Shown here: positions 6,554 through 60,766 of the stretch, piece by piece
Numbering within the stretch: position 1 is the stretch's first letter
Layout: the number at the start of each line of letters is the position of its first letter
Assembly (NCBI GenBank): GCA_025738555.1
Contig: JAOVFP010000010.1
Coordinates: 4,041,501 to 4,105,500, forward strand
Length of the DNA stretch: 64,000 nt
Reading direction: 5' to 3'
Origin: Cyathus striatus
Lineage: Eukaryota; Basidiomycota; Agaricomycetes; Agaricales; Nidulariaceae
The notes under the pieces: generated by a model
What the model was told of the DNA's origin: nothing
Database searches by the model: none
What the model saw: only the letters and a program-made list of their open reading frames with translations
Program-made: the position numbers and the translations under genes

Positions 6554-6612
6554 GTAAGTTGATTTAGTTTTGAATGTCTGTTTGGTATACATTTCCAATC
6601 TTATCAATGTAG

Positions 6613-8937
6613 TATAAAATTTGAAATCTCTGTATTATATTTGATATGTCAAATCTTTATGCATTTCCTCCTTCACAAGCAAAGTGTCCTGTATGGTTTT
6701 CTAAGTCTAAGTTCCATGCTAATGGAATTTATTCTCATGTTCACCATAATATTGACACTTAATAATTGGATACAATGTGGAAATAAAACTACAAATTTAC
6801 ACATTTGGATTATTTTAATAATGTTGCCAGGAGTTTCAGCAAACATGCAACCCTTCCCTGATATTCCATTTAAAACCTTCAGCAAATTTATTAGTAGCAA
6901 TTATAGTTCTGAAATTTCCCTGTCAACAGCTTTGGCAATACTATTTACAGTCACACATAATTGTGACCTATTAAGTCTTCATGCAAGGCAATTCAATCCT
7001 AGATATCCAGAGGAAAACAATGTACAAATGACTGCTTGGATGCTCACTTTATCTAGAGCACTGCAAGTTTATCTTGGAGAGAGATGTAACAAATTATTTA
7101 AAGAGGAGCCTAATGATGAAAGGGATACAATTTTGGCATTCAGCTTAGATAACTTGATGAAGACTCTAAAGCTTAATCTGATTGGATCATCTGGGAGATT
7201 TAAAGGAAATTTAAAAGTAGTATCTCATAAAGAGATTTCACCAGCATTTGTTATTTGCCCTGTAACTGCTGTATGTATAACAAATACATGCCCTTTATTA
7301 GCATTGCACTTATCAACAATTGCAAGGGATATACCTTCTGTTACATTAATTCAGGGTACTGAAACTGTAAAAAATGTTCAAGTACTTACAGGAATATGCA
7401 ACAGATGCAAAACACAATACTCTGCTGACAGAGAGAAAGTTTCAATTCCAAATCAAAAAAATACCAGAGTGTACCTTAATTCTGCAAAGTATGTGAAAGT
7501 AGGACACTCACTGTGGGTGGACAGAACATTTTCAAATGCAGCTGTAAATGCAATTTATAGTTTTCATGCATCAGCTGCTGCTTATATAGAATTTTGGAAC
7601 AATAGCTTTTCTGATGAACACAGTATCACCCGCAGACAGATCTGGCAAGCATTTATCCAAGAAACTGTGGCCTCTTCAAGAGACATAAATTTGGAAGTAG
7701 AAGATGGTCTCTCAATTGATAATCTTACACGTGAGGCATTTTCATTACTTGGTGATAATGGAATTATTCGATCTGCAGATAAGCACACATGTTCTGAGTG
7801 CACACATGCTTATAGAAGCAGGTCCAATGCAATATCAGATGCTGACCCTGCTGGTGTGGTAGGAGTTGATGAAAACAGAGTAGTTCCTGATCTTGTACAA
7901 TCTGAAAGTACACAGGAGGATATGAACTCTGTAAACATACAAAGAGCAGTAGTAGATATGGAAAATAATAATACAGCAACAAATGAGAATGAATATGCTC
8001 CTGTTAAAATGGTTGTATTGGATGGTATTATGATGGGTCCCACACATTGTGCATTTGAAGAATGTACAAGTGAGTTACATAATGCACATGGGGGGGTTTT
8101 CTGTGAAGTACATGAAGCCTTTTATGGTGCATGTTGTCGTGTTCAAGGGTGCAATAATATGAAAAAACAAGGTACTCAAGCTTGTAATAATCACCAAGAG
8201 GAGTGGAAAAGGTTTCAATCAACATGTAACACTTCCCATCATGCTGGTGTAAGAAGAATGCTTCAGCATCCAGGAGAACAGCTCCCATGGAATACAGTTA
8301 GACCAAGAAATGTTCAGCCACATGATGAACAACAACAGTTGAATTACTTTACTCCAGGTAAATTCTACTGTGTGGAAACAATATGTGCACCTTGTGGTGT
8401 TGTTATTGCCTGGACAAAATTTGAGGGAGCAGAATCACCATTCAATATTATGAAATTCTTGGAGGAAGTATTCCCTATTGAAGAGTCCAGGTCAGATTAT
8501 GTATGCATTGACAAGGCATGTTTGGTACTAAGATATATTCTTAATGATGCAAGAAGAGAGCAATGGGAAACCTGGAAAAAAACTACAAGATTTAGTGTAG
8601 ATAGCTATCATTATACAAATCACAGAGTTAAAGACTTCCTCTGCAGAATATTTTGCAATCCTGCCCCACTAGATGGATCTGCTCCAAATCTGGTTGTAAC
8701 TGATTTTGACAATAATGGAAATCCATATTTAAAAAGAGCTTTTAATACACAGGTAAGATACATATTATAATTATTTCAAAATATTTTTAAAACTACTACT
8801 TGTCATAGGCATGTGAACAGCTTAATGCTTGGCTTGGTGGCTTTGAGTCTATTTTAAAAAAGATGACTCCAAGCAATTTTAATTGGTTTTTACATACCAT
8901 GTTGTTTTATCACAGTAAGCATGTTATAGATAGGTAA
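6613..8937 (+). CDS. KDZ transposase with CxC5 and CxC6 zinc clusters, copy A
   Basis: A 2.1-kb open frame plus a last exon after a 56-nt intron (8753-8808). In order: an N-terminal helical region ending LSLHARQF; CxC5 cluster (CPVTAVC, CNRCKTQYSADRE); a conserved LWVDRTFS...IYSFHASAAAY block; the first probable catalytic Asp in VVLDGIMMGP; CxC6 cluster (CAFEEC, FCEVH, CRVQGC, ACNNH); the second Asp in VCIDKACLV; a conserved VDSYHYTNH block; and the Glu in ACEQLNAWL. This is the D-D-E layout of KDZ transposases with a zinc insert. No initiator ATG is conserved: codons upstream align between copies, and the exon joins in frame to 4095-6553 through the 59-nt intron 6554-6612. A TAA at 8935 trims about 20 residues found in copies C and D. 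This half is open, but upstream stops make the gene non-functional as it stands. Confidence 0.85.
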
Positions 8938-25682: not shown

Positions 25683-27876
25683 TTATATGTCCACATCCAT
25701 ATCCTCAGGTAGATCATCACTGAGCCTTATCTTTATTGCTCTTTGCTGTTGTCTATCCAAAACATGTTGTGTGTAATAAACCAACATTGCATGTAGAAAT
25801 CAATTAAAGTTTGATACTGTCATTTATTTGAGAATAGACTCAAACCCACTCAGCCAAGAATTGAGTTGCTCACATGCCTGATAATAAATTAATAGTTATT
25901 AAGATTTTAATACTTATATCTTACCTGTGTATTAAAAGCTCTCTTGTAATATGGTTGACCATTCCAATCATGTTCAACTATTACAAGATTAGGAGCAGAA
26001 CCATTACTTGGTGCAGAATTGCAAAATGTACAACAAAGGTCATCATCTGCATTATGATTTGTATAGTGATATCCATCAACAACAAATTGACTATTCAGTA
26101 GCCAAGGGCAATAAAGAATATTTTTCAGAACTGAATGTAGAACCAGACAGGCTTTGTCAATACATATATATGCTGGATGTGAGCCAGATATTGTGTAAAT
26201 CATATTTAATAACTCCATAATATTAGCTGTTGACTCAGATTTTACAAACTTTTCAAAGCAATAACAACTCCACATGGAGCACACATAGTTTCAACACAAT
26301 AATAGTGATTTGGGGAAAAATAAGACTTGCAGGTATCAGAATTATCATCATTCTGTTCTTCATCATATGGCTGCTGTGGTTGATTAACATTAGGTAGCCA
26401 TGCCAGGTTTTTATTTCTGTGTTGCAGTGCTCTTTTTAGTTCAGAAAGACTTGCTAAACTGTAATTTGACTTATGCTTATTCCACATTTCTTTATGAGTC
26501 TCACATGCTTCTGTACTTGCAACTTTTTGTGCATCACAACTCTTAACATGGCATTTGGGTCCATATTGTATGTTATGATGTCTGCAGAATACACCACCAT
26601 GATAATTGTTAACTTCAGCATGACAACCCTCCATTGCACAGTGCTAAATCATTAAGTCTAAGTTTATAATAAATAAATACACATACAGTTGGGCCCATTA
26701 CAACACCATCTACTACAACCATCTTTACAGGAGCAATATCTTCTGTTGTAATATTACTTCTGTAGTTAGTCATGTTATCAGCTGTAGACTTGTACTTTTG
26801 AGTACATTCTAAGCAGCTGTGCTCTGATGGAGGTTTAACAATTCCATTTGCCCCAAGATGCTCAAATGCATAATGTGTAATTTTATTGATTGGTAGATGA
26901 TCATTAATAGTAAGTTGTCTACCAGTAATTAAGTTTACAGTCTGAATAGACTCATCTATAAAGGCATGCCAAATTTGCTTGTGACTAATTTCAATGTTAT
27001 TTTCAAAGCTATTACTCCAATATTCAGCATATGCTGCAGCTGATGCATGAAAACTGTATATACCATGCACTATTGCTTTAGAGAATACTCAATCCACCCA
27101 AAGATGAGTATCTATTTTAAAATAATGTGCTTTATTTAAATATTCTTTTTGTGGTCTCTGATCAGTAACAGATATACATTTATGATCAGCATAGTATATT
27201 GATTTACACTTAGAGCAAGATCCTGTTAGTATATATGATTCATGATACATTTTTGTACCCTCAATTAATGTAAATTTTGGTATATCTCAATATTTTGAAT
27301 TTTGTGTTAATACAGATCCATCACATGATGCACCATTGCAATGCATAAATGATGGATATATCATTTGTACTGGAGTTAATTTAGTTTCCAAAACAGGTCC
27401 TAGCTCTCCAATATAGTGCCCTGTCTCATTATATGGATGCAATTTAAGAAATTTGGAAAATGCATCCAGTTTTGCAGAAATATTATAGTTAATGTCATCA
27501 TCATTATCATAGTGATCTGGAATTATATTTTCTTGAAATAAATATTTTGTTTTATTACCAAGAGAAGATGTGGCAGCCATTGACAGTGCATTAATCCAAG
27601 CAGTTAGTATTGTTGTTCTTCTGTCATTTCCTTCACAATACTGTTGTCTTGCATATAAATTTAACAGCTCAACACTACTTGTTAGAGAAAACAGCAAAAA
27701 TATAACTGTTGATAGGCTAATCTTTGATTCAAAGTTTGCTTCAATAAACTGACTAAATTAGCTAAAATTTAATATAGGAAACTCTTGTTCAGTTTCTATA
27801 GCATAGGCCATTAGTAAGTAATACAATGCAACTAAATATGAGTGCCTGAGCAATAGAGAAATGCATATTTGAAGTA
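25683..27876 (-). pseudogene. KDZ transposase, copy D
   Basis: Reading leftward: LLMAYAIETEQEFP, LLNLYARQQYCEGN, AKLDAFSKFLKLHPYNET, the CxC5 region (27360-27190), IYSFHASAAAYAEYW, VVVDGVVMGPT (first Asp), CxC6 (CAMEGC, CRHHN, CHVKSC, ACETH), CVETMCAPCGVV, YICIDKACLV (second Asp), VDGYHYTNH, an intron near 25924-25877 and ACEQLNSWL (Glu). It has several stops and a frameshift near 26245. It uniquely carries a 43-nt intron (26644-26686) inside the CxC6 region, absent from copies A and C. Its N-terminal extension is missing beyond 27876, where a gypsy LTR begins. Confidence 0.8.
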
Positions 27877-28551
27877 TGTTATGACTGTGCCCCTAGCCTG
27901 ACTTGGCAGTGGAGAACAAAGGGGTGACTGCAGAGTAATGAAGGGTGAGTATGAGATGAAGATGGAGAACAATAACTCAGGAGGTAGGACTTTGGCTTCA
28001 GCTTATGTGCTGCACCCCTGGGATTACCAGTCCTGGATTTCAGAATAAGAGCAAGCTCTTTGGAGAAGATGAGAGATGAGAGAAGACAAAAGACAAGAGG
28101 CATAACTCAAGTCAGACAAGAGGGTGAGGACATAGTTCAATATGAAAACTGGGGACTAAGTACAAATTGAGTGCTACTTAAATACTAGAGACTCAGAGTA
28201 AATAAAGGGTGCTGGCCTTGGCCAGTGGAGAAATATGGCCAGGTACCAGTCCCTAAGAATGTAGACTAATACTAATTAAATATAATAAAATGCATTGGAG
28301 AAGTGAGTGCATATGGTGGTGTAATGTGAAACTGATAGTGGCACACTTAAGAATGATAAGTGACTCACTATGAGTATATACTACAATTACTGAGGGGATA
28401 ACTCAGTAGAATGGAAAAAAAGGAAATGTGAGTAAACTATATACAGTAATCAATATGTAATATTAAGAGTGTAATCAAAGTGTGAAGTAAACAGATGGAA
28501 AGGTGGAGTAAGGGACTAGGAGTCTGGAGGTAGGTAATATGGGATATGATA
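27877..28551 (-). repeat. LTR of a truncated gypsy element (copy 2)
   Basis: Runs TGTTATGACTGTGCCCC ... TATGATA, about 675 bp, and is colinear with the 29657 LTR (similar by eye, mostly transitions). On the minus strand it is preceded by a purine tract (AAGGGAGGAATAC, 28552-28564), the position of a polypurine tract, so it is the 3' LTR of a leftward element. The rest of that element is cut at 29204 by the palindromic element. Confidence 0.75.
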
Positions 28552-28757
28552 GTATTCCTCCCTTAAGGCCTGAGCATGTGATCAAGACAATAGGCTTTTG
28601 AAAATTTGATTGGTGTTTTGATATCAGGTCTGGATATATATAGGTCAGCTGTGGAGGAAAAAATCAAATCTGTATTTACCTTACTACACCACCTTGATAT
28701 CACATGACTGCTTAAACAATATCTTCTAACTCTCAATCAAAGCCCAAGGCCATTGAC

Positions 28758-29204
28758 ATGGAGAAACTCAAGAGGCTTGAGGAGTTGAAGGCACAGATGA
28801 AGGCTTATAAGGTGGAGTTAGGCATTGGGGTAGTGGCAGAGTCAACTGAGATTGAGATGGCAAGGGAGACTGAGCAGGTGGGGGTGGAGAAGGAGGATGC
28901 AATGGAGGTGGACAAAGGAGGAAGATTGGAAGCAATAAGGGCAAGGTCATGTGAAAAAGATGCAGCTAAGGCTAAGGTGGCACAGGCAATGGCAAGGTTA
29001 ACTGGTCGTCCCATGGAGGAAATGACTGAAAGGAAGTTTGGTCCAGCCTCACATGTGGAGTACAAGGCAACAATGGCAAGGTTGGGAATCTTGTCATTTA
29101 GTCCAGAGTCAGTGCAAGAGTCCTTACATTACCACAGGGAGGCCAACAGCTTGGTGATAATAGTGGACAAGTCAATCCCAGTGAAGAAGGTGGTGGAGCA
29201 CTAG
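28758..29204 (+). pseudogene. Truncated antisense gene of gypsy copy 2
   Basis: A 148-codon frame starting MEKLKRLEELKAQMKAYKVE. It parallels the N-terminal half of the 30498 gene: both have ETEQVG/EAEQVG, DAMEVDKGG/DTMEVDKGG, VAQAMARLTG/VAQTMARLTG, the SPE...SLHYHREA block and PVKKVVE/PVKEVVK. It lies at the same place relative to its LTR, about 200 bp inside, and ends where the palindromic element begins. It shows that the antisense gene is a stable part of this gypsy family. Confidence 0.7.
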
Positions 29205-29656
29205 TGTCAGCCAATTGTGATCACAGAATGCCCAGGATTTTTGATTACCATGATCAAATAACCTGGACAAATATTTTGATCACATACTACTATATGTTTA
29301 CTAATGAATCTCTGAGGTACTAGTGGATGTATATGTGATCTTAAGTGATCATATAGTGTTTCAAGAGTGTATTAGCATATTATTGGTACTAATGAATGTA
29401 AAGGTGATCATAAGTGATCATTAAGCATTTCAAGGGCATATGAGCTTATTATTAGTACTAGTGAATGTGTAGGTGATCATAGGTGACCATTAGGGATTTC
29501 AAGAGCATATTAGCTTATTATTAGTACTAGTGAATGTATAGGTGATTATAAGTGATCATTGGGGATTTCAAGGGTATATTAGCTTATTATTAGTACTAAG
29601 GAATGTATAGGTGATCATGAGTGATCATTAAGCATTTCAAGGGCATATTAGCTTAC
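29205..29656. mobile_element. Palindromic element, copy 2 (left part)
   Basis: Starts GTGTCAGCCAATTGTGATCA, the inverse of the 15700 end of copy 1. A decayed hairpin follows, then four or five of the 75-bp units (ACTAATGAATGTA...GGTGATCAT). It is interrupted at 29657 by the LTR, so it is older than that gypsy insertion and younger than gypsy copy 2. Confidence 0.65.
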
Positions 29657-30317
29657 TGTCACGACCATGCCCCTGGCCTGACTTGGTGGCAGAGTATGAG
29701 AGGGTGACTGCAGAGAAGCAAAGGGTGAGTATAGTATGAAAGTGGAGAACGAGAACTCAGGGGGTAGGACTTTGGCTTCAGCTTATGTGCTGCACCCTTG
29801 GGATTCCTGGTCCTAGATTTTGGAGTAAGGGAAAGCCCTTCAGAGAATACAAGAGACAGAAGATAAGAGATGTAACTCAAGTCAGACAAGGGGGTGAGGA
29901 TGTAGTTCAATATGAAACTAAAGTCTAAGTACAAATCAAGTACTACTTAAATACTGGAGACTCAGAGTAAGTAAAGGCTGCTGGCCAAGGCCAGCAGAGA
30001 AGTACAGTCAGGGTAGGTGCATGTAGAATGAAGACTAAAACTAATTAAACATAATAAAACACATCAGAGAAGTGAGCGCATATGGTGGTGTAAAGTAAAA
30101 CAGATAGTGATGCACTTATGAATAATAAGTGACTCACTATGAGATGTATACTACAATACTGAGGGGATAACTCAGTAGAATGGAAGAAAGGAAACAAGAG
30201 TAATCTATGTACAGTAATCAATAAGTAATATTAAGGGCGTAAGCAAGGTCCAGAGTAACAGAGGAAAAGGTGGAGTAAGGCATAGGAGTCCAGAGGTAGG
30301 TGATACAGGATATGACA
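29657..30317 (-). repeat. 3' LTR of the ambisense gypsy element
   Basis: 661 bp bounded by the 5-bp inverted ends TGTCA...TGACA. On the minus strand the adjacent 30318-30330 is a polypurine tract (AAGGGGGGAATAT), as expected immediately upstream of a 3' LTR. Confidence 0.8.
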
Positions 30318-30410
30318 ATATTCCCCCCTTAAGGCTGAGCCTCAAAGCCTGAGTACATGATCAAACAATAGGCTTTTGAAATTGATCAGTGATTTGACAT
30401 CAGGTCCAGA

Positions 30411-30420
30411 TATATAAAAG
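30411..30420 (+). promoter_or_regulatory. TATA-like element of the antisense gene
   Basis: TATATAAAAG lies 78 bp upstream of the ATG at 30498 and outside the LTR. Gypsy copy 2 keeps a similar GATATATATAGG before its 28758 frame. It suggests the antisense gene has its own promoter. Confidence 0.45.
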
Positions 30421-30497
30421 GTTAGCTGTGGAGGAGAGAATCAAACCCATTCTTTACCCCGTTACAACAACTCCTTAACATGTGACCACTTTAAACA

Positions 30498-32481
30498 ATG
30501 TCTTCCACTTTGCAATCAAATGAAGACCCTACTCGTGAGGAGAAACTTAGGTTAATGCTTCACAAACAAGCAGAGCTGGAAGCTCTTGAGAAGGAGTTGA
30601 GGGGTGTCGAGAGGGAAAAAATGGAGAGTGAGGCAGTGAAGGAGGCTGAGCAAGTTGGAACAGAGAAGGACACAATGGAGGTGGACAAGGGAGGAGAGTT
30701 AGGGGCAATAAAGGCAAAGACATGTGAGCAGGCTGCAGTCAAGGCTAGGGTTGCACAGACCATGGCAAGGCTAACCGGTCACCCAGTGGAGGAAATGACA
30801 GAGGGGGAGGTTAGACTGGCCCTGCATACAGAGTATGAAACAATGGTAGCAAGGTTGAGCATAATGTTGTTTAGTCCAGAGTGGGTGGAAAGGTCCTTAC
30901 ATTACCACAGGGAGGCTGACAGCTTGGTGATGATAGTAGATGACTCAACTCCAGTGAAAGAAGTGGTGAAGCAAGCAGTAGCTGAGGTAGGGCCAACAAG
31001 GGTAGGGGCTCCAACTCCTGTAGTGGAACTAGAGGTAATCACTACTTCACAGGTGGGTACCTACATGAGTGCAGAGCAACTTGCTGATTGTGATCGCACT
31101 GTTCAGCAATTGGAGGCTGAGGGCCACACCATGACTCTGGAGGAAGAGGTGGAGAAAAACGTTCAGTGAGCGGAGAACAAGGGTGGCTCCAAGAGGAAAT
31201 GCACCAACATGAATCTGGAGAACATGACAGAGATGACACCAAAACCGCCCAGGAAGAAGACTACAACCCAGGCTTCCCAGCACAAGGGAGCGAAGAGTAA
31301 GGCTCTTATTGATGATGAGGCGATAGAAGACAACACTAGCAGCATGGCTAGCCAGTCTGGAAGCAAGAGTTGTACTGGAACAAAGAGCCAGACTGGGGAC
31401 AAGTCTAACATTGAGGTGGAGGAAGCAAGAGCATCAGTGGAGAAGAAGGGTAAGGGGGTGGAGAAGACCAAGACAGCTGTGGAGAAGAAGAAAAAGGTGT
31501 CAGAAGTAACAAAGAATAAAGAGGAGTGAGTGAGAGAATAGGGTGAGATAATGGAGCAAAGAGAGGGTGGTAAAGGTGCAAGAACTCAGACACAAACACT
31601 GACACAGACACAAGATGGGGAGGAAACTTGTTAACAACTACCAAGTTACAGAGTGTTTATATACTGAGTAAGTCTACCAAAGTCCTAACCAAAGTCCTGT
31701 AACTAAGGTAACTGACAGCTGTCAATCTGTCAATCACAAATCCATCAATCAAGTATCTGTCAATCAAGTATCTGTCAATCACAGATCTGTCAAGTATGAC
31801 AGGTGACAAGTGACAGCTGTCAAGGAAGCTGTGCAACCCAGAATATCTAACAAAAGGAGGCCTACATGTTACCCAAGGTCCCCTGCAATGTATGCAATAA
31901 GTTTGGCAGGGAGTGCTTGTTGGATCTTGAGTAAGTTGTCCATTTTCTTATTGAAGTTGTCCTGACTTGCTCCTAGGGGAAAGAAAATGAACCACAAGGC
32001 ATGTGACGCATGTCGGACAAAGAAGGGAAGATGCAACAACAAAGGGATAATGTGGAGAACTGTAGTTCCGAGGAATGCAGAGGAGCAGAGAAAAGGTCTG
32101 GAGAAGATGAAGACTGGTAGTGTGGGCTAGGAGAAACTGGTGGAGGAGTTGCAGATGCAACTGGCAGTGGTGAAGTTGGAGTTAGAGATCATGGAGAAAC
32201 AAGCGAATAAAAGGTGGACCAAGCTCAAGATGTTTGATGCCGAGGTCAAGATTCTGAGGGACCAGTTGTTTCTAGTGGAGAATGAGTGCAACAAGTTGGC
32301 AATGCAGCTCAACTCTGGGAGCCCCTTATCAGACATGCTGATGGAGGCCTTGGGGAGGAATGTCAGCATGCACACAGAGTTAATGGGCATATTGAACAGA
32401 TTGATGACAACCACACAGGTGGCAGAGGAGGGTACTCCAGCAGAGACTAATGAATTTGGGAGTAACAAGGAGGAGGAATAA
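30498..32481 (+). pseudogene. Antisense gene of the gypsy element: zinc-cluster/coiled-coil protein (interrupted)
   Basis: The plus-strand frame opens MSSTLQSNEDPTREEK and is charged and helical (EALEKELRGVEREKME, VAQTMARLTG, a SLHYHREA block). After a TGA at 31167 the same frame continues through a Lys-rich segment to 31529. Further on, coding resumes with VPCNVCNKFGRECLL. A probable intron (GTAAGTTG...CTCCTAG, about 31931-31977) follows, then KACDACRTKKGRC, giving two adjacent C-x2-C-x6-C motifs reminiscent of fungal DNA-binding Cys clusters. The C-terminus (32140-32481) is a heptad-like coiled coil (EELQMQLAVVKLELEIM). Stops at 31167 and 32128 break the frame. Plus-strand splice sites, a TATA-like box and the paralogue at 28758 argue that it is a real gene. 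A regulatory or DNA-binding role is inference. Confidence 0.6.
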
Positions 32482-32839
32482 GACAAAGACAAAGATGAAG
32501 TGTAATGTACAGTAGGCGGAAAAATTGTAAATACTTATTTTGTGGACTTTAATGATTTTTTGATGCAAGGAGAATGAACAGTAAGAGTAAATGATAAAAT
32601 GGAGTAGGGAGAAACACCTTAGGAGAAAACCAATACAACTCTGTACTTCCACTCTCAGCCCACCTTGTTAAGTATGCAAAGTGATGAATCAGCTATGCTT
32701 ATTAAACGTAGTGGTCATCATGCAAGCAGTGTCTGGAGAAGCATCAATCTTCAACCTTTGGTCAAGAAGATGAATATGGATATACAATAAACTATAATGG
32801 AGAAACAGAGATGTAAGCAGAGAAAGTCTATGTAACAGG

Positions 32840-33148
32840 AGTAGAAGGATTGGGCTTATCAGAATAATGAGCATGAAATTCCTCTATGAGTTCTGTAGCA
32901 TGTTCTACTTCAGTGGCAGCCAACTAAGTGAGTTCTTCATCAGTTCCTTCATAACCAGTCCATCAGACTAAGTAACAAAGAGGACATTTCTTGAACTGGC
33001 AATCTAGCTTGGAGTTGCAGATCTCACTGATCTCAAACTCAATATCTCCATCAATTTCCACAGGGGGAGGCAGAGGTATTTCTCGACCAGGGATGGTGTT
33101 TTCAACTGTGGGCTCAAGCATAGAAACATGGAATACAGGGTGTACAGC
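32840..33148 (-). pseudogene. Chromodomain, C-terminal end of gypsy integrase
   Basis: Reading leftward from the integrase: PVFHVSMLEPTVENTIPG, then EFEISEICNSKLDCQFKKCPLCYLV, a stop, WTGYEGTDEE, and EVEHATELIEEFHAHY. This is the usual chromovirus tail: an F-E-I-x-x-I-L-D-S-K start, a Y-L-V-x-W-x-G-Y strand and a C-terminal helix. The Arg-rich strand is changed (DCQFKKCP). Chromodomains guide such integrases to histone marks. The region between here and 32482 is non-coding and separates the convergent antisense gene. Confidence 0.7.
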
Positions 33149-33990
33149 TCAGAAATTGGAAGGGAGTCTAAGGGTGTGGGAGTGGGTACCAGTTTCGGCA
33201 ATGATCTTGAAAGGACCATAATACTTTTCAGCCAATTTCTTGGAAGAGCGAGTGGTGTTAAAGAACTTAGCACGAATGAAGACTTTAGTTCCAACTTTGA
33301 ACTTCAGGGCAGGCAAGCAACAGTTGTCTGCTCCAACCTGATAGTACTTCTGAGCAAGTGCTATTTCAGCCTTGAGGTTTTCATGAAGTTCCTGAAGATC
33401 CATGGCATAGTCCCTAGCATGAACAGAAGTAACATCATGTTTGGGATAAACTGTAATCTGTGGATGATACCTCTTATTGGCAAAGAATGGAGTAGTATTA
33501 GTGGTTGAGCTTGGTGTGTTGTTATACATGAACTCAGCAATGGGAAGGAGATCAGCCCAGTTGTCCTGCTGGTAATTGCGGTAAATGTGGAGGTACTGCT
33601 CTAAGACTTGGTTAATGCATTCAGTTTGTCTGTCACCTTCTGGGTGATATCTGGAGGTAAAGTGCAGGTTGATGTTGAGAACCTTATCAAGAGACTGGAA
33701 GAAGTGGGAGACAAACTCCGAACCACAATTGGAGGTAATGTGGCTGGGAACACCATGCTTAGAGAATATGTGCATGACAAAGAGCTTAGCAAGTTGGGCA
33801 GAGGTGATGGTGTTATGACAAGGGATGAAGATAGCTTGCTTGCTAAGGCGGTCAACAATAACTAGGATTGACATGGAGAACAGGATGAAGGAGTGTGGTG
33901 GCACAGATAGAGGTGATGAGCTGTTCTTGGGTAAAAACAGGATGAAAATTGTGTGGATTAACTTTGGTATAGTCGTTATTCCCCCCTTTA
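33149..33990 (-). pseudogene. Gypsy integrase with internal deletion and catalytic substitution
   Basis: Contains ILVIVDRLSKQAIFIP, then VMHIFSKHGVPSHITSNCGSEF, then FTSRYHPEGDRQTECINQ (catalytic Glu), and NYQQDNWADLLPIAEFMYNN. The C-terminal KVFIRAKFFNTTRSSKKLAEKY block follows. The second catalytic Asp (normally TSDxGSEF) is Asn. The HHCC zinc region and the first Asp, normally between DALTR and ILVIVDR, are deleted around 33870-33960, and a TGA lies within ALTR*WD at 34002-34004, just outside the right edge of this entry. It is inactive. Confidence 0.8.
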
Positions 33991-34004
33991 GAGTAGATGT
34001 CCCA

Positions 34005-35300
34005 TCATCTAGTTAAAGCATCAGATTTCACACCAAGTTTCCCTGGGCAGAAATGAATAACCAAATTGAACTGAGACAGGTACTCTGACCAACAAGCCTG
34101 GCGGCAAGTAAGGATCTTGGTGGTGGAGAAATACTCTAAGTTTTTATGGTCAGTGACCACATCAATCAGAGTACCAGAACCCTCCAAGTAGTGTCACCAG
34201 ACATGAAAGCTTCAAAAATAGCCAGGAGTTCCTTGTTGTGAGTGTCATAGTTCAGTTCGGGAGAGGTAAATGTATGGGAATTGAATGCAATGGGGTGGAT
34301 ATCACCATCGTCAGCAACAATTGAGAGGATTGCTCTGAGAGTGTAGTCAGAGGTGTCAGTTTCTATGATGATCTGGGCATCAGGAACCCAATGAGTGAGT
34401 ACAGGAGCTGTGGTGAAGGTGTCCTTCAGTTTCTCAAATGCCAAATGGCAAGCCGGAGAAAAGTCCCACTTCAAGCCCTTGCAGGTAAGATGAGTGAGAG
34501 GCACTACTATATCAGAGTAGTGCTGGATAAAGCGCCTATAGAAGTTAGTGAACCCAAGGAAAGACTGAACATCTTTAACCTTCTTAGGCTCAGGCCAATC
34601 CCTAATGGTTTGGACTTTATCCTGGGACATAGTGAGGCCACTTGGAGAAAGGACATAACCTAAATACTCAACAGATTCAGAGTGGAATTCACACTTGTCC
34701 ACCCAGGCATAGAGCCCATGTTGGCATAAATGCTTAAGAACTTCTCTAACATGCCATTTGTGCTCCTCAAGACTATCAGAGTAGATTAGTATATTATCAA
34801 GGTAGACTGTAATGCACACATTGAGCATGTCCTTGAAGATGTCATTCATGAAATGTTGGAAAGCTGCAGGTGCATTGGTGAGTCCAAATAGCATAACTAG
34901 CCATTCAAACAAGCCATAGTGAGTGCAAAAAGCAGTCTTCCACTCATCTCCATCAGCAATATGGACTAAGTGATAAGCATGGTGGAGATCAATCTTGGTG
35001 TAGATTCTAGCCTTGCAAGGAGAGTCAAGGAGGTCAGAAATAAGAGGAAGGGGATATCAATCCTTTTTGGAGATTGCATTAAGCCCATGGAAATTGACAC
35101 AAAGTTGAAGAGATCCATCCTTCTTCTGGACAAAGAGCACTGGTGCTCCATGTTGAGAATGAGAAGGATGAACAAAACCAATCCTGAGATGTTTGTCAAT
35201 GAACTCTTGTAGAGAGGCCAACTCAGACTGTGAGAGTAAATACATAGTACCAACTGGAGGAGATGTACCTTCCTTCAAGTTGATCCAGAGATTGTAAGGG
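34005..35300 (-). pseudogene. Gypsy reverse transcriptase and RNase H
   Basis: RT runs from FVHPSHSQHGAPVLFVQKKD through CVNFHGLNAISKKD, RIYTKIDLHHAYHLV, FGLTNAPAAFQHFMNDIF and the active site VYLDNILIYSDS. YLDD is changed to YLDN, removing a metal-binding Asp. The connection has FLGFTNFYRRFIQHYSD. RNase H has IIIETDTSDYTLRAILS, then FNSHTFTSPELNYDTHNKELLAI, and after a frameshift near 34180 [15 protein letters not shown], ending KSDALTR. The order and spacing are the standard Ty3/gypsy arrangement. Broken by a stop near 35055 and the frameshift. Confidence 0.85.
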
Positions 35301-35473
35301 CAATGTGGAGCAAGAGTGTCTGCTCATGTTTTGCTGAAGACACCAGTAAACTCATGATATTCCTTCAGAATATTGGAAAGGTCCATAGCTTCTGCAGCCA
35401 TGGCAGTGGCAGAAGCTGAAACTATGGCACTAACTTATATTCTAAACATCTGCAAGCTAGCAAGCTTACTAGC

Positions 35474-36090
35474 TCAGAGAAAAGCTGCAGCATTAATGAG
35501 TAAGATAATAGGAGGTGGACTATTGTCCAACAGAGGAACAGAAGATGAAGCTGGTAATGGAAGGGTTTGCAAAGAGGCTGATGCCTTCAATGCAGGTGTT
35601 GACAAAGATGGAGAAAATTCTCCTGGGACTGGGGTTTGGAAGCCAAGTATACATCTCTCAGTCCAGTCAATCAATGGATTGTGTTGGGAAAGCCAGTTAA
35701 ATCCTAATACCATGGAGCAGGAGGAATTGAGCAGAGTTACATAGAAGTTAATATCCATGCATTCACTAGTAGGAAATGTTACAGATAGTAAAGTACTCTC
35801 TGTAAGTATAGAGTTAGAGGTACTGTCAAATAGTTTCAGTGCAATGGGAGGGACCAGAGTTGTGGGGAGGTTGTGCTCCCTCACAAATGACAAGTCAGCA
35901 AAACAATGAGTTGAACCAGAATCAATAAGAGAGAGTAAAGATAGGGGCATATCTGGCACAGCTGGAGAAAATAAAGTCAAAGGAATATGTATAGCTTGGA
36001 GATCATAAAGAGCAGATGTGTTTAGTCTTATCTCCTTAGGTGCACAGGAGAGATTAACATGGTCCTCAGCCTGTGCAGAGTCACTGGAGC
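35474..36090 (-). pseudogene. Gypsy retropepsin (aspartic protease) region
   Basis: Contains SLIDSGSTHCFADLSFV, the D-S-G active site of a retropepsin, followed by VTLLNSSCSMVLGFNWLSQHNP, the conserved I/V-L-G-x-x-W-L strand. Upstream (36000-36090) is linker. The 35300-35470 stretch between protease and RT is decayed. It would cleave the gag-pol polyprotein. Confidence 0.75.
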
Positions 36091-36096
36091 TGCTCT

Positions 36097-37906
36097 CTAT
36101 TTTTTCGAACTCTCAGCTGAGTTTGCTGAGGGAGAAGCCTCAGTAGAGGTGGCAGTGGCCACATGGGCTTTGGCAGCAGAGGCTGCCTTGTGACAGTCCT
36201 TGGCCTGATAGCCAGCATTGCCACAGAATAGGCAAAGCTTCTGGTCTAGGTGATGTTTACATTCTGCCAGGGTAAGCTTCCCATCAGAACCAAGCTTCCT
36301 AGTCAAGTCTTGCACCTTGGACTGGTTCTGCTTTTGCTTGTTCTTGGGTTTCCCTGAAGATGAAGTGGAGTTGGAAAAGGCAGAGGAGGAGGACAAGGAT
36401 GATTGAGTCTTGGAGGAGGAGGAAGAATTTGAAGTTGACTTTGAATTCTGATTGCCCTTGGGCTTCTCTGAAGACTTGGCAGCAGACTTGCTGTGTTTCT
36501 CCTCAATGTTGCACTCAGTATTGTGCTCCCAATCCCTCTAGTCATAGCCCTGGGCTTCCTTCTTAGTCCCAGCAAGAGTCATAGGCTTGCCTTGCTCTCA
36601 ATGAGAGAGAGTGTCCTTCAAACGAGAACAAAGGCTACAATAGTATGCTGAGTTGAGGGCAGCATCATCCCAAGGCATGAGTGTTGCATACTCATTAAAC
36701 TTGATCTCATACATAGTGAGACATTGGTTATCCTCCATGTGGAGGGAGAAGGTGCAAATTTCAGCCTCACCAATAGGGTTGGTATGGCTGAAATTGGTGT
36801 GGAGGAGCTGGACAAAATGGCCCCATGAATCCATCCATGGCTCATAGGCACCATCATCAAGATAGGTGGCAAACAGATTGCTTTCCGAGCCACAGAGGAA
36901 AGTCAATGTGTAGTTGACTTTAGATGCATCGTTCAGGTACAACTGAGGGTCATTCCAGAACTCCAAGCAGACTTGCATAATGAAAGGCTCTAGTTTAAGC
37001 ATGTTGGAACCATTGAAGTTATCTGGCTGGTTAACCTTCTTCCAAATGGGAGAAGGAGGTAGTGGAGGTAGTGGTGGCAGGGCAAAGTAACCCACCACAG
37101 AGGCCACCATTTCCAGGATTTCATCCCTGGTGAAATTGTAGTGGCATCTTGGGCAATGAGGGTCACATTAGTCACCCCTTGAGGGCCTAGAAGAGGAATT
37201 AGAGGGAGGACCTCTGGGGCAATTTGGTCTGCCAGGACCATCACCACTGGCACCTGCCTGCTCATTATCATCCCCTGCATTATTGCCATCATCTCTGGAT
37301 CCAACCATCATTGTCTCCATCTCCGGGTTGATCACCATCATTTCCATTATCATCTGGAGGGTCATTGTTCCCAACTCCAGCAGAATTACCACCAGACAGA
37401 GGTGGAGGTGGAGGTGGTTCTTCACTGCCTGAAGCTACAGGCTGCTGAGTGGTTGGCAAAGTGACTGTGGGTGCTTGCTGCTGGTGAGTGGCTATACCAT
37501 CTGAAGAAAGTTGAGTATCCACTGGTTCTATGGATGCGGTGAGGACAAGGGTGGGGTCAAAAGAAATGCTTAGTGGGATTGGGCATGGTGTGTGCAATTG
37601 ATTGCTGTGAACTGGCTGAAGTTCATGAGCTGCATGATGAGTGGAGGTAATTCTTTCAGAAACAAGAGCACTGGCTGAAGGTGGGGCATTCTGCTGGGAG
37701 AGAGTTGGAGCAGAGTCAACATGATGGGGTGTGCTGGCATTGTTATGTTCACGAGTTTGCTGAGCAGCTAGACAATCACTACAATGCACATTGTTTTGCT
37801 GCTGTTCATGGCTCCTGGCATGTGCAGTCTGAGTCTGCATACAGGTGGCCATGAGGGAAAGAAAAGTGTTATGAGAAGAGGAATCCAAGGTAGTAGTTCT
37901 ATATAC
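36097..37906 (-). pseudogene. Gypsy gag with altered zinc knuckle
   Basis: The N-terminal half (37289-37900) is Gln/His/Ser/Pro-rich, then Gly/Asp/Asn-rich and low-complexity. Then comes a capsid-like helical block (WKKVNQPDNFNGSNMLKLEP, LTFLCGSESNLFATYLDD, MYEIKFNEYATLMPWDDAAL, YYCSLCSRLKDTL). After a break near 36600 there is a Ser/Lys-rich part and a nucleocapsid motif, CLFCGNAGYQAKDC. This is CCHC with His replaced by Tyr, so zinc binding is probably lost. Frames differ between the pieces, so it is dead. The first Met of the original protein may be MATCMQTQ near 37850. Confidence 0.7.
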
Positions 37907-38026
37907 TGTCACAACTGTGCCCCTGGCCTGACTTGGCAGCAGAGTACAAGGGGGTGACTGCAGAGAAACAAAGTGTGAGCAAGAGACAAAAGTGGAGAAT
38001 GATAACTCAGGGGGTAGGACTTTGGC
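37907..38026 (-). repeat. 5' LTR fragment of the ambisense gypsy element
   Basis: TGTCACAACTGTGCCCC and the next 105 bp match the start of the 29657 LTR with roughly 85-90% identity by eye, mostly transitions. The match stops abruptly after GGACTTTGGC, so about 540 bp of the LTR are missing. Confidence 0.75.
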
Positions 38027-38319
38027 TATATAACATAGTCAGAAGTTCCTTTATTCTGTTACAAAAAAATTCTGCATTTGGTTAATACATAAGCTTCTTG
38101 CTCCCTCACTTTTTGATTTATAACTGATGAAAACACAAATCCAACACAAATCTTCATCTTTTCTTGTCTTTCTTTCATCTTTAAACTTTTACATTGTTTA
38201 GTACTGTCTATAGATTTCTTGTTTGAGTGGTGTCATAGTTCTCATTCTGGTTGCAAGTGCCTTCCCACTACTGCTTCTGCTTATTTTTGTGATATGAGCT
38301 TGAGTGATTGGAATGGTAA

Positions 38320-38400
38320 TGAGTCCCCTGTTACAATCAACCATACCAAATTGAGTTCTAGCACAAGATTTTGACACATCACATGATTGGTTCACAAGCC
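38320..38400 (-). repeat. Inverted coding-like remnant, left copy
   Basis: The minus strand encodes SCDVSKSCARTQFGMVDCNRG. The plus strand at 39880-39955 encodes ADVSKSCAST-FGIVSCNRG. At the DNA level about 60 bp are nearly 90% identical in opposite orientation. Protein family not recognised. Confidence 0.6.
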
Positions 38401-39874
38401 AGCTTGAATGGTGCTGTGATGCTTGGAAGGCACTTATATGGCAATCCTTCATGTGATGTTTTCTGTGCTTGCATTTTTGTATGCAACTCCCTAGATACAA
38501 TAGATACATCACTACAGTAGATAATAAGTCTACTATACTTGCCTGTATTTGATATTTTATTGTAGGTAGACATTAAACAGGTGCTTATAAACTGTAGGTA
38601 ACCACATGTCTGCATTTAGTAACAGTAATCTACTAAGAAAATATATATATTCACTGTAGTGTCTAGAAATGACTTTAATTTAATATTTGATTTCAGTAAC
38701 TACTTACTGTATGGCAGTAGCACACTTATCAACATTCATAATAATGCTGTATAAGTATTATAGTTATTGAAATAAAGTTATTGATTTTGTAAATATTTAT
38801 AACTCTTGAGCCTCTTGTGCCATTCACAGAAATTGTTAGCATGTACAGGTAATAGAGTAAAGTAAGAACACTATAGCAGGTAATATGAATAAGTAAATGA
38901 ATAGCTAAATATAGTGTGCTCTGTTCACCTCAGTTCTCATAATGAAGAGAGACAACTGAGGTGGGCAGTAACATCATAATCTACTTTTATACCAGGAAAA
39001 GAATGAAAATTCATAATACAAGATCAAGTCAAGTTAGTAAGGAAAATGGCAGTGCTCTGCCAGCTGAAGTGCTGACATGGCACATCAATTGCATGAGGAT
39101 AGGATGATAAATCTGTGTTCTATAACAGGAATGAGATGAGAGTATAAACCACACACATAGATACTAAATTACTTTTGAGGAAAGTATATGTAGGTACAAC
39201 ATAAATATATTATGTATTTAAACACAGTCTACCTACTGCATACATTAAAAAACATGGTTATAACATTCTGCAAAGTTGTACATTTTAAACACTACATAGA
39301 TATGCATATCTATGCACCTTACAACATGACATCACATGAAATTAATTCATTGGCCAGCAGTAATCCAACATCCAACATGGGTACATATCTATTAACTTAA
39401 GTATAACTACCAGTTTATCAGATAAAATGATTGTTGAAAAGATGGGGAAGAAGAAAGGATCAAGTTCATACCACATGGTGTTGTATTGTATTATCCCACA
39501 AACATAATTTTTGTTTATATAAAAATGTTACTTATGTACATACCGATTTGTAACTTCAATATTGATAAACTATTTCTTAGCTTGACATTCTGGTTGGTGG
39601 ATATTTTTTGGCACAGTTGTAGCTCCCCAGCAGTAATTGTTCATATACTTATCTTAAACACACATACTTTTAACAATGTTACATTACAATCTGTTTCATG
39701 CATTTTATAGCATTGGAAATAAGAATGAGTTCCTCCAATAGAGAAGAAAGAAAATAAATCTGCATTTCATTCCATACTGTACTGCACATTCCCTCTTATC
39801 TCCTTGCACAACTAGCACACAAGGACATTAAGTCAACAGAAGAGGTTTGCTTACATAAAGGCTGCCATCCAAGC

Positions 39875-59442: not shown

Positions 59443-60766
59443 ATGTCCCCATTCTCATCTCTCCTCGACCAGAGCACATTCACCGTTCCCTCCTTCGCCC
59501 TCGAATGCGGCGCAGAACTAGTCCAAGTCCCAGTGGCATACAAAACATGGGGAAAGCTCAACGCAACCAGGGACAACGTCATGATCATCTGCCATGCCTT
59601 TACGGGTAGCGCAGACGTGCAAGACTGGTGGGGCCCCCTAATGGGCAAAAACAAAGCCTTCGATCCAACCCGCTACTTCATATTCTGCGCAAACGTCCTA
59701 GGCTCCCCATACGGCTCTGCCTCACCCGTCACCCCCAATCCAGCTAACAATACCCCCCTACGGCCCCGAATTCCCCCCCACAACAATCCGCGACGACGTG
59801 CGCCTGCACAAACTCGTCCTCGACTACCTCCAAGTCTCCTCCGTGGCTGTAGCAATTGGCGGCTCAATGGGTGGAATGGCAGTCCTTGAATGGCCCCTCT
59901 GCACACCACAAAACTACATACGGCATATCATCCCCATCGCCACCTCTGCTCGCCACTCCGCCTGGTGCATCTCCTGGGGCGAAGCACAGCGCCAGAGCAT
60001 CTACTCCGATCCGGGATACCTCGATGGCTTCTACGATGCCCAGCCGGCAAGTGGTCTTGCTGCCGCACGCATGGCCGCCCTCTTGACCTATCGCAGCAGA
60101 GATAGCTTCGAGAGCAAATTTGGAAGAAAGCCGCAAGTCGTTAGTGCGCAGACGGGAGTCGGCGCAATTACACCCCCTGATTCTCCAAAGTCACAGGGAA
60201 GATCAATCGAGGCCCTCGCAGCGCATAATGACGGGCATAGGAATACGAAATTGGGTGCGCCCTCTGAGCCAGCGGAGATGTCCCCATCCCCAAAGCCTCC
60301 CATATTCAGCGCCCAATCCTACCTCCGCTACCAAGGGGACAAATTCACAGCCCGCTTCGATGCAAATTGTTACATTCACATTACAAGAAAGCTCGATACC
60401 CACGATATTGCTCGTGGCCGATGTCCCTCCTCCCTCGACAACGACGCGGACCTGTTCCAAGTCCTCGCACAACTCCCTCCACGCGCGCTAGTAATAAGCA
60501 TAGCGACTGATGGGCTATTTACCCCCCAAGAGCAGCGCGAGATCGCAGCTCACACTCCTGACGCCGAGCTCGTTACCATTCCTTCTCCCGATGGACATGA
60601 TGGCTTCCTGCTTGAGTTTGAGGCGATCAACAGGCATATTTTAGGCTTTTTGAAGAGAGAGTTCCCGGAGTTGTATCTTAACGAGGATGGAGAAGAGGTG
60701 GAAAGCTTTGAGATTACAAAAACAAGCGTGTTTGGAGAAGCTGAGGTTGATGTTGTCAGGTGGTAG
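59443..60766 (+). pseudogene. met2: Homoserine O-acetyltransferase, with one frameshift
   Basis: Transfers acetyl from acetyl-CoA to homoserine in methionine synthesis. The ATG at 59443 has a good context (CAACCACCATGTC). Alpha/beta-hydrolase blocks in order: LECGAELVQVPVAYKTWGKL, IICHAFTGSADVQDWWGPLM, FCANVLGSPYGSASPVT, then after a frame change VRLHKLVLDYLQVSSVAVAI, the nucleophile elbow GGSMGGMAVLEWP, ATSARHSAWCISWGEAQRQS, YLRYQGDKFTARFDANCY, the catalytic Asp region SIATDGLFTPQEQ and the catalytic His in PDGHDGFLLEF. The two halves are out of frame by one base at a C-run near 59751-59757 (ATACCCCCCTACGG). That is either a true single-base insertion or a homopolymer sequencing error. Otherwise the full length is present, so it could be functional. 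Confidence 0.85.

Follow-up and report, generated by a model that had tools for sequence, protein, structure and literature searches.

The stretch of Cyathus striatus DNA analysed here, 64,000 nucleotides (nt) of contig JAOVFP010000010.1 and hereafter called the window, contains a degraded chromodomain Ty3/gypsy retrotransposon whose gag-pol region runs leftward, on the minus strand, and which carries a two-exon gene running rightward between pol and the 3' long terminal repeat (LTR). Pfam searches place a gag capsid region at 36598..37167 (Retrotrans_gag, E 3.1e-5), an aspartic protease region at 35474..36112 (RVP_2, E 1.2e-6), a reverse transcriptase (RT) with RNase H at 34166..35056 (RVT_1, E 2e-28; RT_RNaseH_2, E 1.2e-23) and, at 33149..34012, part of the integrase core (rve, E 5.9e-7) with its SH3-like C-terminal part (SH3_Tf2-1), all on the minus strand and in the order gag, protease, RT-RNase H, integrase that is typical of Ty3/gypsy elements. 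The RT-RNase H, protease and gag matches exceed the Pfam cut-offs; the integrase core of the window falls slightly below and is partly deleted relative to sister copies. A minus-strand chromodomain lies to the left of the integrase (about 32850-33000) and scores above the Pfam cut-off of 25.1 bits in two sister copies, L017 (29.8 bits) and L015 (33.5 bits). This position at the integrase C-terminus, together with LTRs that end in TG...CA and are bordered by target-site duplications (TSDs), is as expected of a chromovirus. A search for RT relatives among viral contigs found none.

The left LTR (29657..30317, minus strand, 661 nt, TGTCAC...ATGACA as read on the plus strand) is 77-99% identical to LTRs in sister loci and is adjoined by a polypurine tract, AAGGGGGGAATAT, on the minus strand at 30318..30330. 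It is therefore the 3' LTR, and the tract fixes the polarity of gag-pol. At the other end, a remnant of the 5' LTR is left at 37907..38027 (minus strand, 121 nt), with 84% identity to the left LTR over 120 nt.

The antisense gene has a recognisable architecture on the plus strand. A TATA-like box, TATATAAA, lies at 30411..30418, just inside the element from the 3' LTR and 87 nt 5' of the ATG at 30498, and in 16/16 copies having the gene start the same box lies 78 to 87 nt ahead of the start position, where 15 of them have the ATG in place; further upstream, the purine tract, seen from the plus strand as a pyrimidine run, occupies -166 to -180 in 14 of 16 copies. Exon 1 (30498..31930) is followed by a 46-nt intron (31931..31976, GTAAGT...CTAG) and exon 2 (31977..32481). 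All 14 copies examined have GTAAGT...AG at the intron, and the 30 rows of an alignment agree with it when eight of them are shifted by 2 nt and L048 by 1 nt. We infer that the intron has persisted because the element's genomic RNA has the opposite polarity and so never loses it before reverse transcription, which suits the antisense reading. One C-x2-C-x6-C motif stands on either side of the intron: CNVCNKFGREC at 31884..31916 in exon 1 and CDACRTKKGRC at 32002..32034 in exon 2, followed by a predicted coiled-coil helix at approximately 32119..32310, a position transferred from the model of a sister copy. The gene and pol lie tail to tail, with ends about 325-330 nt apart in L017 and L015, which is the position and direction of the class of antisense open reading frames (ORFs) labelled aORF-3R.

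The window copy of this gene is dead. Exon 1 is broken by a TGA at 31167-31169 and by a solo-LTR-like insertion at 31498..31852 (355 nt, TGTCAG...TAACA, with AAAGG direct repeats on both sides), and exon 2 by a TAG at 32128-32130. The insertion is absent from most of the sister copies listed, in which query position 993 is joined straight to 1357. In L010 a related insert sits some 45 nt further along the gene, and L012 has a related piece at 8384-8709. A reading made earlier from the letters alone (the sequence-only reading) had proposed the leftward gag-pol with its polarity fixed by the polypurine tract, and a rightward gene at 30498-32481 between the chromodomain and the 3' LTR with its own TATA-like box and a plus-strand intron, and each of these proposals held when the domains and sister copies were compared. 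That reading is to be corrected in that the gene copy in the window is broken and only the left LTR is complete.

We searched the genome assembly (107.45 Mb, 24 contigs) for other copies. The search with the gene gave 82 matches, merged into 40 places, which is a lower bound because 40 of 755 candidates were scored. From the 39 places outside the window, 20 were fetched as 10-kb loci, selected for holding the gene. LTR sequence lies to the left of the gene in 19 of these loci (the exception is L026), and part of the chromodomain lies to its right in 18 (all but L024 and L012, the latter keeping a piece of the integrase). The RT is present in 17 and in all 17 it is on the strand opposite to the gene. 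Both exons are open in two of the 20, L014 (536 amino acids, aa) and L018 (522 aa); in L015 exon 1 is open and a frame shift occurs late in exon 2. One of the loci, L009 (G000:C3:6143366-6153364), is 99.0% identical to window positions 28998-39012 over the 10 kb compared, flank outside the element included, and is therefore a segmental duplicate and not an independent insertion; it was left out of the selection, divergence and LTR tests.

A second search, anchored on the RT and independent of the gene, returned 40 RT matches (40 of 302 candidates scored). Of these 40 copies, 30 have all or part of the gene in the expected slot: 13, with the window and its segmental duplicate among them, adjoin known gene places, and 17 come from the 27 others, in which a 1.2-kb slot at the expected distance was inspected. 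These positives include partial genes, with L037 holding part of exon 2 only and L044 and L046 being gapped. The gene is thus present in most of the RT copies examined, as in aORF-3R elements, and the proposal of the sequence-only reading that it is a family trait is borne out by copies elsewhere in the genome. Among 11 LTR pairs, seven have perfect 5-bp TSDs outside the LTRs and one has 4 of 5 positions matching, the remaining three being unreadable; the paired LTRs differ by Kimura two-parameter (K2P) distances of 0.015-0.13. Distances between copies of the gene are correlated with those between their RTs (Mantel r 0.45 for exon 1 and 0.68 for exon 2), with none of 999 permutations reaching values as high. 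The antisense gene, inside both the LTRs and the TSDs, belongs to the mobile unit.

The window itself contains a second, truncated element of this kind, as had been proposed from the letters: an LTR at 27877/27888..28549 (minus strand, 81% identity) and, at 28716..29204 on the plus strand, an ORF from the 5' part of the antisense gene, which is a 75% direct repeat of 30664-30963. Between this truncated copy and the element lies a tandem array of a 69-nt unit (29317-29661) whose units are 83-86% alike.

Codon constraint on the gene was measured as omega, for which the observed nonsynonymous and synonymous differences of each copy pair are compared with the expectation from the same changes on the same trinucleotide context. 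Copies with fewer than approximately 350 aligned nt were excluded (L037 from exon 2, L046 from exon 1), and L051 was kept despite a local frameshift. In the gene frame, omega is 0.56 for exon 1 (35 copies, 595 pairs) and 0.55 for exon 2 (36 copies, 630 pairs). The copies are related and the pair counts non-independent, which is answered in part by disjoint closest pairs, for which omega is 0.66 in exon 1 (16 of 17 pairs below 1) and 0.57 in exon 2 (18 of 18 below 1). The other plus-strand frames give 1.34-1.43, and the favoured frame switches at the intron, matching the splice model. By the same method, the RT gives 0.61 (16 rows), the protease 0.64 (15) and gag 0.46 (14), so that the gene is conserved like the other proteins of the element, again as in aORF-3R elements, while the LTR gives 0.93-1.17 over its six frames (18 rows). 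As to stop codons, in exon 1 there are 0.16 stops per 100 codons in the gene frame versus 1.65-6.31 in the other five, and, read in register across insertions and deletions, exon 1 is stop-free in 22 of the 35 copies (in 8 of the 20 longer copies and 14 of the 15 half-length slot pieces) and exon 2 in 32 of 36. The dN/dS comparison that the sequence-only reading had suggested revealed purifying selection on the plus-strand frame, so that neither of two outcomes named there as refuting, a gene lacking from other copies and a frame free of codon constraint, was borne out.

Constraint extends along the whole protein. A scan restricted to the fuller copies (18 of exon 1 and 35 of exon 2) finds purifying selection in all 17 windows of 22-30 codons, with omega between 0.34 and 0.97 and the strongest constraint at the second cysteine trio. 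Exon 1 nevertheless shows more raw divergence than the RT, protease and gag; in the same 15 copies (L010-L028), p is 0.178 for exon 1 versus 0.094 for the LTR, 0.116 for the intron and 0.081 for the RT. Diversifying selection in exon 1, which this divergence had prompted us to consider, was not found, omega being below 1 in every window; exchange between old subfamilies is perhaps the cause. We conclude that the antisense gene is a real protein-coding accessory gene, selected about as strongly as gag and pol.

In the encoded protein, the pattern C-x2-C-x6-C, 13 residues, C-x2-C-x6-C is joined by a linker to the predicted coiled coil. The six cysteines are almost invariant, being retained in 200 of 201 cells of the copy alignment (32/33, 33/33 and 30/30 for the first trio, 35/35 for each position of the second), whereas the protein has three further cysteines that are variable. 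Two such trios of invariant cysteines are also a feature of the Zn2Cys6 cluster. The second trio resembles positions 1-15 of the Zn_clus profile (E 0.0015, 19.1 bits in L017) and the first trio positions 16-31 (E 1.2), the spliced protein as a whole scoring 9.8 bits. In Zn2Cys6 proteins the basic trio, CxxCRxxKxxC, comes first, and here it comes second. We therefore read the C6 motif as one that resembles a Gal4-type zinc cluster with swapped halves, a description of its pattern and not an assignment to the family. Basic stretches, KRRR and PPKKK, precede the cluster and resemble nuclear localisation signals. An AlphaFold2 model of L018 exon 2 (mean predicted local distance difference test score, pLDDT, 64.9) has a helix at residues 48-111 with pLDDT of about 75-90 over most of it, which makes the coiled coil a prediction of moderate confidence. 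Matches to DUF6594, TBCA, tropomyosin and liprin were below cut-offs or weak, seem to reflect coiled-coil composition, and were rejected. Here too the sequence-only reading stood in part: the two cysteine motifs it had noted are real and highly conserved and its coiled coil is predicted, although the zinc-cluster identity of the product stayed below the PF00172 cut-off in profile searches.

No homologue of the full-length L018 protein was found at E <= 1e-3 among 5.8 billion proteins (7994 scored candidates), and none of a 12-protein exon-2 alignment at E <= 1 (1596 scored candidates). As a control, the homoserine O-acetyltransferase encoded in the window at 59702-60763 matched 4451 proteins, the first being from Cyathus striatus (88%); the named proteins among the 120 listed are from mushrooms and relatives, and the other listed proteins are 74% identical or less. 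The database thus holds agaric proteomes, but the absence of homologues is weak evidence because annotated proteomes often omit transposon genes. In the genome of C. striatus itself, a Zn_clus search gave 25 matches, none of them at the known gene places (from the 40 of 755 gene candidates scored).

Taken together, this chromodomain Ty3/gypsy family carries an antisense accessory gene, predicted to be spliced and to encode a protein of about 520-540 aa, and we consider it rather probable that this protein is a nuclear DNA-binding regulator. It is most likely a dimeric regulator of the element's own transcription. In the mechanism that we infer, the plus-strand gene would be transcribed from its own TATA box and spliced, and the protein would enter the nucleus and dimerise through the coiled coil; the C6 motif would then work as a zinc cluster, binding either the element's own DNA or the host chromosome, and the bound regulator would determine how strongly the element is transcribed, in much the same way as HBZ of human T-cell leukaemia virus type 1 (HTLV-1) acts on its provirus.

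Several results weigh against this reading. The first concern the gene as a family trait and as a plus-strand gene. In 10 of the 40 RT-anchored copies the gene is absent from the expected slot, which, by our reading of the sequence, holds tandem repeats or ORFs resembling other elements; in three such copies that were followed, two lose homology inside the integrase and the third keeps the integrase and the start of the chromodomain, and no clear gene-less subfamily emerged, though there may be one. The minus frame that shares third positions with the gene also has a low omega (0.67 in exon 1 and 0.61 in exon 2, the remaining minus frames giving 1.25-1.60). In exon 1 this frame contains 1.65 stops per 100 codons, about ten times the gene frame, but in exon 2 it is fairly open (0.59 stops per 100 codons, 14 of 36 copies stop-free), so that the argument for the strand rests on exon 1 and on the lower omega of the gene frame. 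Other results concern the product. The PF00172 cut-off (21 bits) was reached nowhere, the best score being the 19.1 bits from one of 9 pieces; Zn_clus was matched at all in only this 1 of 9 pieces and in 2 of 12 exon-2 proteins (best E 0.12); the 13-residue loop between the trios exceeds the usual 5-12; and the model of exon 1 is poor (mean pLDDT 45.5).

The LTR offered a candidate target site for such a regulator, a 20-bp palindrome, CCGCTGGCC-NN-GGCCAGCGG, with CCG...CGG ends (window copy at 29978-29997), and this too failed to strengthen the case. It is perfect in 8 of 30 LTRs, or 12 of 30 counting a CTG...CAG form, and partly lost in 9 of 30; its conservation (0.925) is not above that of the rest of the LTR (0.933), ranking 403 of 642 windows, and CGG triplets are in mild excess over shuffles in four related LTRs (fractions of shuffles reaching the observed count 0.007-0.09). 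The palindrome and CGG triplets were therefore set aside as a target site and are kept as a lead only. At the centre of the palindrome most copies have the dinucleotide AA and some have TT, and even the paired LTRs of a single copy can differ in this respect, as though the centre could flip.

Among other explanations, the one that fares best, though we regard it as rather unlikely, is that the protein assists the replication cycle as an accessory factor, acting in nuclear entry, assembly of the ribonucleoprotein or choice of integration site, with the coiled coil self-assembling and the C6 motif contacting nucleic acid or protein. Selection about equal to that on gag-pol, the basic stretches before the C6 motif and the predicted coiled coil would all suit such a factor, and excerpts of PMC7264820 describe a nuclear protein of maize Grande whose role is unknown. 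However, no feature of the sequence singles out a role of this kind, and the order of C6 motif followed by coiled coil is that of Gal4-type regulators.

We consider it improbable that the protein works against silencing of the element by the host, for instance through methylation or RNA interference. The differences in the paired LTRs of L011, L014-L018, L020 and L025 are nearly all transitions. In these eight LTR pairs, 100 of 129 C-to-T type differences are at CG, versus 297 of 2233 unchanged C, a pattern that suggests methylation decay at CpG rather than classic repeat-induced point mutation, whose context is CpA. The host thus appears to methylate the copies and silencing is likely, a setting in which either a regulator or a counter-silencing protein would make sense. 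An arms race would nonetheless be expected to leave fast change, and omega stays below 1 in all 17 windows, the highest value being 0.97; moreover, the protein database search returned no homologue of any kind.

It is very improbable that the gene is a recently captured host gene, or a separate mobile unit nested in the element, with no role for the latter. The lack of homologues among retroelement proteins would fit a capture, but the gene is present in copies whose LTR pairs have diverged over the whole K2P range given above, its distances track those of the RT, and the search of a database with agaric proteomes in it brought up no homologue. Least credible is that the plus-strand unit acts as antisense RNA only, with an incidental reading frame: the sense and antisense overlap would be about 2 kb, and such RNAs are discussed in PMC7264820, but codon constraint measured against a context-matched control, the change of frame at the intron and the nearly invariant cysteines disfavour this as the sole explanation.

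Further to the left in the window, the ORFs at 6563-8770 (plus strand) and 25907-27757 (minus strand) are similar to each other by eye and bring to mind the cysteine-rich proteins associated with KDZ transposases in Agaricomycetes.

ORFs that run antisense in the space separating pol from the 3' LTR form an established class, represented by Grande, RIRE2, Retand, PvRetro13 and Boty, and the function of antisense accessory genes of LTR retrotransposons is still described as open (excerpts of PMC7264820 and, for the class, PMC11963269). In the plant members (gene23 of maize Grande, rice RIRE2, Retand of Silene with its TRP28 domain, and bean PvRetro13), the ORF has the same position and direction as the C. 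striatus gene and is conserved in most copies; according to the same excerpts, Grande has its own promoter for the antisense gene and a DNA-binding role has been proposed for Retand (PMC7264820, PMC11963269). These are plant elements, however, and Retand belongs to a non-chromovirus lineage. The TRP28 family (PF04195) is not among the Pfam families listed for our element and gene.

The sequence-only reading had known of no such gene with a zinc-cluster product in fungi, and Boty, an element of Botrytis cinerea and Sclerotinia sclerotiorum, is a fungal precedent for the gene itself. For its antisense gene, brtn, PMC7264820 cites Zhao et al. 2011. Boty is likewise a fungal Ty3/gypsy element, with a CHROMO domain (PMC4227169) and an antisense ORF that lies after pol and before the 3' LTR (PMC7264820), and brtn is mentioned in PMC8365987, PMC4227169 and PMC5987419. 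Boty differs in its ascomycete hosts, and the portions of these papers available to us mention neither a zinc cluster nor an intron for brtn; the likeness noted here is one of arrangement, as given in published descriptions. For Tcn1-like fungal chromodomain Gypsy elements, one more ORF, its function unknown, is indicated in a figure legend of PMC2864245, whose main text names neither an antisense direction nor a zinc motif. In the mussel Mytilus chilensis, both strands of the LTR retrotransposon MchSLE-1 are transcribed and there is an antisense ORF, but one of 67 aa and in an animal element (PMC10974842), and bdelloid rotifer elements carry various third ORFs (PMC5408684). In the open-licence PubMed Central literature, covered by titles and the starts of abstracts and, for longer lists, by a limited number of entries (for example 20 of 82, 25 of 47 and 10 of 34 papers), we found no zinc-cluster antisense gene in a fungal retrotransposon and no such gene of any kind in a basidiomycete. 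As far as this literature shows, three things are new: that the host is a basidiomycete, that the gene has two exons on which selection has been measured, and that its product is zinc-cluster-like.

Among protein families, the likeness to Gal4-type Zn2Cys6 regulators (PF00172) consists in the two C-x2-C-x6-C trios, the basic residues in one of them and the coiled coil downstream, all features of the family; the protein differs in its score below the Pfam cut-off, in the apparently swapped order of the trios and in the longer loop. Among regulatory systems, HBZ of HTLV-1 offers the best functional analogy, and it is an analogy only. According to excerpts of PMC10186651, HBZ is also antisense, spliced and near the 3' LTR, and encodes a nuclear regulator of sense transcription with a zipper-type domain; it differs in belonging to a retrovirus, in its basic leucine zipper and in a TATA-less promoter inside the 3' LTR, whereas the TATA box of the fungal gene lies just outside the LTR. 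More tentatively, and with somewhat less than even confidence, we suggest that the element may carry its own Gal4-like transcription factor, with swapped halves, encoded antisense, driven by a TATA box and spliced, and that the family could thereby have independently evolved a two-promoter circuit comparable to that of Tax and HBZ. An antisense accessory gene with an intron that marks its direction, measurable selection, a recognisable motif and many copies is an unusually clear case. The family brings the question of whether a retrotransposon can encode a transcriptional regulator of itself within direct experimental reach in a fungus, where the element may bring its own control gene.

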